Below are positions 26,227 to 28,149 of a stretch of DNA of 50,709 nucleotides, in pieces. A model generated the notes under the pieces. That model saw only the letters and a program-made list of their open reading frames with translations, was not told the origin of the DNA and did no database searches. The position numbers and the translations under genes were made by a program. Origin of the DNA: Bacillota bacterium (GTDB lineage Bacteria; Bacillota; Sulfobacillia; JACIYH01); assembly GCA_040757085.1 (NCBI GenBank), contig JBFLXJ010000018.1, positions 1 through 50,709 of the forward strand, in the 5' to 3' direction. Numbering within the stretch: the stretch's first letter is position 1; each line of letters starts with the position of its first letter.

Positions 26227-26556
26227 CTATAGCTTGATCTGGCGGGCGGCGGCCTCAGAGATGGCTTTCTCCACCATGGTCTTGGGCGGAAACCCCTGGG
26301 GTTGCAGCGGGCCCGGATACACGCGACAGGCAAGACTCCATCCCGTCATAGCGCGCGCGTCGGGGTCCACGTCCAGGCCGTCCACCCGCACAGTGGGTGA
26401 TCCCAGGAAGCTCAGCCTCTGAGCGGTGCTCGCGTCGGGAACCGGGACCATGGTGACGGGCACTCTCAACCCGTGCTCGAAGAGGACCTCTTCTACGACC
26501 GCCCGGGTCGGTTTCACGTGCCGTCAACCCGGGCTGTACAGCAGTTCAATTCGCAT
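26227..26556 (-). CDS. Predicted thioredoxin-fold selenoprotein (Sec encoded by TGA at 26524-26526)
   Basis: Read from ATG 26556, the frame gives MRIELLYSPG, then TGA, then RHVKPTRAVVEEVLFEHG and on to 26227: 109 residues counting selenocysteine at position 11. Related small thioredoxin-fold proteins begin with the same beta strand and have a Gly-Cys at this point, followed by a helix and the cis-Pro-like FLGSPTVRVDG (here near residue 63). So the TGA falls exactly where the redox Cys should be. A hairpin meeting the bacterial SECIS pattern lies 13 bases past the TGA. GAGGG precedes the ATG by 8 bases. It is the last gene of a minus-strand redox operon that includes a second Sec gene. A shorter reading from GTG 26517 would lose the active site. 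Confidence 0.85.
26496..26526 (-). promoter_or_regulatory. Candidate bacterial SECIS element for the thioredoxin-fold selenoprotein
   Basis: On the minus strand, TGA (26526-26524) is followed by 13 bases, then stem CGACC (26510-26506), loop CGGGC (26505-26501) and GGTCG (26500-26496). The loop begins 18 bases after the UGA, the upper stem has five pairs, and a G is the second loop base; these fit the published bSECIS consensus (loop 16-37 bases away, G among the first two loop bases). Confidence 0.65.
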
Positions 26557-26570
26557 GGCTATTACCCTCA

Positions 26571-27467
26571 CTAGGGAGCGGCAGTGTGACCGTTGCTGAC
26601 GGTGATGCAGGGACCGCTGCTGAAGTGCACGTGACGGCAACGGGTGCATTCCAGGCACAGGATGCACTGGGAAGAGCGGGGGTCACGCCATACTTCGTGT
26701 TCCATAGGGCAAAGGTCCCGGCACCACCCGCACCCGGTGCAGCGCGGGTCCACCTCCAGGTGGTGCCGGCTCCACCGGTTGGCCAGCCCGTAGAACAACC
26801 CCAGCGGGCACACGAACCGGCAGAAGGGCCGCTTTACGACCAGCACCGCCGCCACCATAACCAGGAGGATCGCCACCTTGACCCCAAAGAGCAGGCCGGC
26901 CATTTCCCGGAGGCCGGGATCGACGGCTAGCCAGGGTATTCCCGCCTCTAGAGTACCCGCAGGGCACAGCTTGCAAAACCAGGGCTCGTGCAGGGCCAGG
27001 GGCAGCGTCACCACCAGCAGCGCCGCCACCAACCACCGGGTCCAGGAGTGGCGGTTTGATACCTGCAATGCGGGCAGGCCGAGGCGGCGGCCCAGGCGAT
27101 GGCCCAGTTCTTGCACGAAGCCGAAGGGACAGAGCCACCCGCAGGTGCGGCGCCCCCACCAGGAGCCCGCTGCTCCCAGTGCTCCCAGGGTTAACAGGGG
27201 GACCCGGCCCAGGGCCAGGAAGTACTGAATGGTGCCCACGGGGCAGGCCCCTATCGCGAGCGGGCAGGCGTAACAGTGAAGAAAGGGATAGGGGAGGTGC
27301 TTGAGCACCGGCAGCGCGTACAGGTTCGCCGCCACGAGGGAAACCACTTGCCAGAACGTGCGCCGGCTGCCAACCTTGCCCACGCCACGCGGGCGCCCGG
27401 GGGCCGGTGGGCCAGCTGCTTCACCCGAGCCATGCGGGCTCAAAACTGCCCGGCCACGTACCCTCAC
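26571..27467 (-). CDS. 4Fe-4S polyferredoxin-type membrane protein (NapH/CcoG-like)
   Basis: About 298 residues. Hydrophobic segments alternate with cysteine clusters: CYACPLAIGACPVG, CGWLCPFGFVQELG, WFCKLCPAGTL and CRFVCPLGLFYG, the last of which are typical of NapH/YccM-type membrane ferredoxins. The end has two [4Fe-4S] motifs, CTGCGWCRDLCPMEHE and SSQCILCLECTRCRHV. It probably moves electrons across or along the membrane to the neighbouring thioredoxin-like selenoproteins. GTG at 27467 overlaps the stop of the 45-residue gene in a GTGA; the first 35 residues before the first hydrophobic segment are Gly/Pro-rich and a later start is possible. It ends 14 bases before the downstream Sec gene. 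Confidence 0.88.
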   Translation of the reverse strand: MRVRGRAVLSPHGSGEAAGPPAPGRPRGVGKVGSRRTFWQVVSLVAANLYALPVLKHLPYPFLHCYACPLAIGACPVGTIQYFLALGRVPLLTLGALGAAGSWWGRRTCGWLCPFGFVQELGHRLGRRLGLPALQVSNRHSWTRWLVAALLVVTLPLALHEPWFCKLCPAGTLEAGIPWLAVDPGLREMAGLLFGVKVAILLVMVAAVLVVKRPFCRFVCPLGLFYGLANRWSRHHLEVDPRCTGCGWCRDLCPMEHEVWRDPRSSQCILCLECTRCRHVHFSSGPCITVSNGHTAAP

Positions 27468-27601
27468 GGTGCCAGCCCGATGCACGAGAGGCACAGGGTG
27501 ACCGCGTTGCGGTAAATGATAGCCGGTTCTCCCCGTGCTGCCCCCACCCCCAGGGCAACCAGAGCCAGGAGCAGTACAACCTTTCCTAGCCGGTGGTTCA
27601 C
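27464..27601 (-). CDS. Small membrane protein with CxxC (CD1871A-like)
   Basis: A 45-residue protein read from GTG 27601: NHRLGKVVLLLALVALGVG forms one hydrophobic segment, and the C-terminus is VTLCLSCIGLAP with a CxxC. This matches the pattern of the small CxxC proteins (CD1871A type) that sit between thioredoxin-like and 4Fe-4S genes in Clostridia. The start overlaps the tlpA-like stop (GTGA) and the stop overlaps the start of the 4Fe-4S gene. That double overlap, the hydrophobic helix and the CxxC make it a real gene although it is too short for most gene finders. It may pass electrons or disulfides between the membrane ferredoxin and the thioredoxin domains. Confidence 0.82.
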   Translation of the reverse strand: MNHRLGKVVLLLALVALGVGAARGEPAIIYRNAVTLCLSCIGLAP

Positions 27602-28149
27602 CGTTCCGCCTCCGCAATCAGTTGTTGCAATTCCCGGGTCAGGGTTGCCGTCCCCGGGTATCCCTCGTGCCGGTAGCGGATATTCCCCTGGTGGTCGATG
27701 AGCACCAGGGTGGGGATAGCCCTGATGCCGTACGCTGTGGCCACCGAACCGCGATGGTCCAGCAGGATGGTGAAGGTGAGACCCCTTGCCGCCGCGAAGC
27801 GCTCCACGGGAGCCCGTTCCGGGTCCAGGCTGGGGGCCAGGATAACCACCTGTTTGCCGAACCTATCGTGTATCTGCTGCAACTGCAGCATTTCCGTATG
27901 ACAGGCGGGTCAGGTGGTCCCCCAGAAATTGAGCACGATCGGCTTGCCCCGCAGGGAGGCGAGGCTCACCTGGTTTCCTGCCAGGTCTGGCAGGGTAAAA
28001 TCCGGCGCCGCTCCCCCGCCGGAATGGTCGGCCGGGCGGCACCCCCCCAGGAGTGCGGCCAGCGCCAGCGTGACTACCGCGGCCAACAGCCCCGCTTTCG
28101 CAAGGTAATGCGGCAGTCGGTGGGACGGTGATCGGCACGACAACGACAT
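27598..28149 (-). CDS. Predicted TlpA/ResA-like lipoprotein selenoprotein (Sec encoded by TGA at 27910-27912)
   Basis: Read from ATG 28149, the protein has 183 residues counting selenocysteine. A basic N-terminus, a hydrophobic stretch and the lipobox LLGGC (Cys near 37) point to a lipoprotein. The thioredoxin domain has APDFTLPDLAG, PIVLNFWGTT, then TGA, then PACHTEMLQLQ. TlpA/ResA proteins have W-x-x-C-P-x-C here, so Sec replaces the first Cys, giving U-P-A-C. The downstream half has the cis-Pro GIRAIPTLVLID. The frame is unbroken on both sides of the TGA, and a SECIS-like hairpin follows it. The protein would act outside the membrane as a thiol or peroxide reductase. It is first in the redox operon, with a promoter at 28165-28193; GGGGGG at 28151-28156 is its weak ribosome binding site. 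Confidence 0.88.
27875..27912 (-). promoter_or_regulatory. Candidate bacterial SECIS element for the TlpA-like selenoprotein
   Basis: On the minus strand, TGA (27912-27910) is followed by 19 bases, then stem TGCTGC (27890-27885), loop AGTT (27884-27881) and GCAGCA (27880-27875). Six perfect pairs, the loop starts 25 bases after the UGA, and its second base is G. It fits the bSECIS consensus better than most chance hairpins. Confidence 0.7.

Follow-up and report, generated by a model that had tools for sequence, protein, structure and literature searches.

Does an in-frame TGA close to the beginning of a small reading frame in a Bacillota contig specify selenocysteine (Sec), or does it break the gene? 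The frame lies at 26227..26556 on the minus strand of the window, by which we mean the whole stretch of DNA analysed, 50,709 nucleotides in length. It opens with ATG at 26556-26554 (-), continues for ten codons (MRIELLYSPG), meets TGA as codon 11 at 26526-26524 (-), and then runs uninterrupted to a terminal TAG at 26229-26227 (-), which would give a protein of 109 aa with Sec at residue 11. A Shine-Dalgarno-like GAGGG is found upstream of the ATG at 26569-26565 (-). An earlier note on this DNA had described the same layout, from the ATG through ten residues and the TGA to the open remainder, and all of its coordinates were borne out. The predicted product matches the NCBIfam model NF049942, "DF family (seleno)protein", with 101.4 bits over model positions 1-96, against a cut-off of 70; we refer to it here as the DF protein.

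The comparison set consisted of two other genomes of the same bacterial family (G001 and G002), both congeneric. Their DF proteins are 71-73% identical to the one described here, and among the three species third codon positions change most in each pairwise comparison of the genes. Given that TGA occupies the same codon in both congeners, that conservation at the protein level flanks it on both sides, and that the terminal stops of the three genes differ (TAG, TAA, TAA) while the TGA is unchanged, its retention exceeds what chance would give. Relatives further removed carry Cys where these genes have TGA. Across the family alignment of 24 sequences, column 11 is invariantly C or U, as expected from the earlier proposal that the TGA replaces the N-terminal redox Cys. 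The alignment with thioredoxin-fold relatives that had been suggested as a check thus places Cys at the TGA, and relatives retain Cys or Sec at this position, contrary to the finding that had been named as fatal to the proposal.

The genome is equipped for Sec synthesis and insertion. A SelB, which the earlier note had suggested looking for, is present at 343 bits (384 with a second piece), accompanied by SelA at 559 bits and SelD at 390 bits, all over their curated cut-offs, and by a tRNA-Sec at 75.7 bits, also over its cut-off. As a separate observation, the genome's own selD (G000:C25:15719-16630, L051) contains one in-frame TGA, and SelD of this genome is itself likely to be a selenoprotein.

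From the gene, the conservation of its TGA, the Sec machinery, the family, the fold and the operon, all read from sequence, we infer that Sec is inserted at residue 11. We consider it very likely, with a probability of about 0.92, that the DF gene decodes UGA at codon 11 as Sec and that its product is a selenoprotein. The in-frame TGA of a small gene might instead be a chance nonsense mutation in a decaying pseudogene. This reading is extremely improbable: the codon falls exactly at an invariant Cys, all three species retain it, substitution on either side of it is of the purifying type, and the terminal stops are intact; the genome, moreover, has the complete Sec machinery, and the operon contains another conserved Sec gene.

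It is also very improbable that translation begins downstream of the TGA, leaving the upstream codons untranslated, an objection that the earlier note had itself raised. An open frame does exist from GTG 26517 and would yield 96 aa; codons 3-10 (IELLYSPG), however, show synonymous change while the residues they encode are conserved, these residues match up with beta-1 of every relative and of thioredoxins, and the Shine-Dalgarno-like site precedes ATG 26556. A protein begun at the later codon would lose beta-1 and the active site. Finally, readthrough could place an amino acid other than Sec at the UGA, as is possible in principle at any UGA. The prospect of this is very slim here, as TGA serves as the ordinary stop of the neighbouring TlpA and CD1871A genes, the Sec pathway is complete, and relatives have Cys at the position. 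Hence we proceed on the reading of codon 11 as Sec.

A SECIS-like hairpin (CGACC-CGGGC-GGTCG) begins 13 nt after the TGA at 26510-26496 (-); its loop, with G as the second base, starts 18 nt past the TGA. The five-pair stem and CGGGC loop of the earlier note thus exist where they had been placed, but they are weaker evidence than the note had made of them, such stems being common by chance. Among all 1133 TGA trinucleotides in the GC-rich window, 37% precede a suitably placed bacterial-SECIS-like stem of at least 5 pairs, and 75% precede one of at least 4 pairs. The hairpin was therefore rejected as proof of Sec. Folding of the bases after the UGA, which had been put forward as a check, gave no confirmation by itself: unconstrained folding shows no preference for the DF hairpin (z -0.4 to +0.6), which is not the minimum-energy fold. 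An Rfam scan of the window returned no match. The inner four pairs and loop, GACCCGGGCGGTC, are invariant across the three species. Between the TGA and codon 20, codons for the same residue are identical in 6 of 6 cases, versus 27 of 60 elsewhere in the DF gene, a modest, post hoc signal. The DF hairpin is compatible with a SECIS element, as weak evidence and not as proof.

Upstream of the DF gene, on the same strand, lie a NapH-like membrane 4Fe-4S protein gene (26571..27467 (-); Fer4_5 and NapH/MauN-type matches), a gene for a CD1871A-family CXXC small protein (27464..27601 (-); NF040920 36.6 bits, cut-off 32), and a TlpA/ResA-like thioredoxin gene (27598..28149 (-)) with an in-frame TGA of its own at 27912-27910 (WGTT-U-PAC). 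The ATG of the DF gene stands 14 bases past the stop of the 4Fe-4S gene, whose GTG start overlaps the preceding stop. Since the genes upstream of DF overlap stop-to-start (GTGA), the order TlpA-like, CD1871A-like, 4Fe-4S, DF looks like one operon. This arrangement, with both TGAs, is conserved in all three genomes. The TlpA/ResA-like gene is likely to encode the other selenoprotein of the operon, its TGA being kept in both congeners, in line with the earlier claim of two Sec genes in one operon. The argument from two in-frame TGAs at redox positions stands; the appeal to SECIS-like hairpins as support is weaker for DF and clear for the TlpA-like gene, where a stem TGCTGC-AGTT-GCAGCA, 25 nt after the TGA (z -2.3), is clearer than the DF hairpin. 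The CD1871A gene is also followed by a 4Fe-4S gene elsewhere in the class (L132, L133, L138 and L140), and a motif search of those stretches did not find the DF gene. DF therefore appears to be an addition to the CD1871A/4Fe-4S pair in this genus.

The gene is an addition to a recently described selenoprotein family, and the family itself was already known. "Hypothetical protein DF" was reported with deep-Sep (mSystems 2025, PMC12013277), which gives Desulfosediminicola flagellatus (WP_419720682.1) alone as the source of the Sec form, with Cys homologues and no other TGA-containing homologue. A 2026 review lists DF under the same NCBIfam model (PMC13188914). What the present gene shares with published DF is a score over the cut-off along the full model, a Sec form, Cys homologues and a SECIS-like hairpin. 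It differs in that the one published Sec form is from D. flagellatus (PMC12013277), whereas here Sec forms occur in three congeneric genomes of another lineage, within a TlpA-CD1871A-4Fe4S operon. The gene thus provides independent phylogenetic support for the DF selenoprotein family. In the contig search for related loci, one hit (L009) was set aside, since it lies within a long reading frame of another kind and matches by chance.

By profile comparison and structural modelling, the DF protein has a thioredoxin fold with a cis-Pro. The profile of 24 members matches the MJ0307 thioredoxin 1fo5 (E 2.8e-7), in an alignment where position 11 falls on the active-site Cys and P54 coincides with the cis-Pro; P54 belongs to FLGSPTVRVDG (residues 50-60), the segment that had been proposed to supply the cis-Pro half of the fold, and the proposal agrees with this alignment. 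An AlphaFold model from a seven-row alignment reached pLDDT 94.3, and a structure search with it retrieved, at Z 7-9, thioredoxins as well as the KaiB fold, which is related to theirs. Foldseek with this model found nothing in the PDB below E 0.001, the best match being a Trx-ArsC complex entry at E 2.5e-3. A single-sequence AlphaFold model was poor (pLDDT 61), and it was discarded together with its Foldseek matches, which were meaningless. In common with classical and MJ0307-type thioredoxins, DF has the fold, the N-terminal active-site residue and the cis-Pro; unlike them, it lacks CxxC, reading U-R-H-V in this protein, and it carries an extra conserved CR.Y...PP segment. The second Cys of CxxC is missing across the family alignment. 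The thioredoxin-like selenoproteins Sec.1 and Sec.2 (PF13192, Thioredoxin_3) have the same fold, although the DF match to that model is weak (E 0.01) and below the cut-off. They too occur as two forms that differ in which Cys is replaced by Sec (CxU, UxC; PMC13188914). Their redox residues are close together, in contrast to two candidate sites 66 residues apart in DF.

The second of these sites is the conserved Cys77 (ACRVY), a proposed resolving residue encoded at 26326..26328 (-). When 195 genomes from the phylum to which a myxobacterial relative belongs were searched, eight Myxococcota DF Sec forms (L100, L101, L103-L107 and L112) emerged in which TGA occupies this second conserved Cys position, within the motif GLG-U-RLYGLAGVPPR. 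The seven that can be read completely have Cys at position 11; L112 could be read only partly. A near-invariant 7-pair SECIS-like stem, TCGCGGG-CGTGCC-CCCGCGA, follows the TGA in these Sec77 forms. SelB is over the cut-off in 6 of the 7 Sec77 genomes tested; in the eighth Sec77 genome (G536) a tRNA-Sec was detected at 79 bits, with no SelB over the cut-off in the assembly. Among the sampled genomes, the DF family thus seems to carry Sec at either 11 or 77 and Cys at the other position. Reciprocal Sec/Cys swaps are usually read as a sign that the two residues form a redox pair. Because Sec is found at either position with Cys at the other, residues 11 and 77 probably constitute such a pair. L109, L110 and L118 have a residue other than Cys at position 77; therefore, an 11-77 bond cannot be universal, and some members must use a single thiol.

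We lean towards a two-site redox family in which Sec was gained independently, as Sec11-Cys77 in this genus and as Cys11-Sec77 in a Myxococcota clade, and in which a long-range selenenylsulfide would form across a thioredoxin fold devoid of CxxC. A single origin of all DF Sec forms is not rejected (AU p 0.13); against it, the Sec11 and Sec77 groups are placed apart in the tree, whose branches are long and whose forks are in many cases weakly supported. With conserved Sec forms seen in both this genus and the Myxococcota, two further lineages, DF passes from a candidate to a well-supported family. Furthermore, the differing Sec positions point to the two catalytic residues of DF, whose function thereby becomes testable.

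In the mechanism that we propose, the DF protein would be a 109-residue thioredoxin-fold oxidoreductase, probably cytosolic, with UGA codon 11 decoded by the cell's own SelA, SelB, SelD and tRNA-Sec under the guidance of the short hairpin just downstream. Sec11 would take the place of the thioredoxin N-terminal active-site Cys, opposite the cis-Pro P54, and its selenolate would attack a substrate, either a disulfide or the thiolate of a metal or metalloid. A Sec11-Cys77 selenenylsulfide would then form, Cys77 being the likely resolving partner with no CxxC present, and a reductant would reopen the bond. Together with the extracytoplasmic TlpA-type selenoprotein and the membrane 4Fe-4S protein, DF could conceivably help to relay electrons across the membrane in a selenium-dependent manner, a tentative and rather doubtful suggestion drawn from the operon partners.

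The company kept by DF in other bacteria bears on its substrate. The DF domain is fused in frame to an LMW-phosphatase/ArsC-type domain in five relatives (L099, L109, L110, L114 and L118; Pfam LMWPc tested for L099 and L114) and to a MerC-type membrane domain in five others (L108, L111, L113, L116 and L117; Pfam tested for L108 and L113). Elsewhere, a DF gene adjoins a heavy-metal P-type ATPase-like gene (L013), and on a Pseudonocardia plasmid a Cys-form DF gene has as neighbours a MerR gene and a gene of the alkylmercury lyase family. These ArsC-type and MerC fusions and these neighbours suggest that the DF family performs thiol or metal(loid) redox chemistry. The likeness to MerB and mercury-resistance proteins is one of genomic company in other bacteria, namely the MerR and alkylmercury lyase genes and the MerC fusions; a search of the DF protein against the Pfam and NCBIfam MerB models, with E values up to 1 admitted, gave no match. 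As a further observation, Cys-form DF genes also occur on two IMG/VR contigs (L127 and L128) near phage-like reading frames, with a terminase-like ORF in L128, and phages may carry the DF family.
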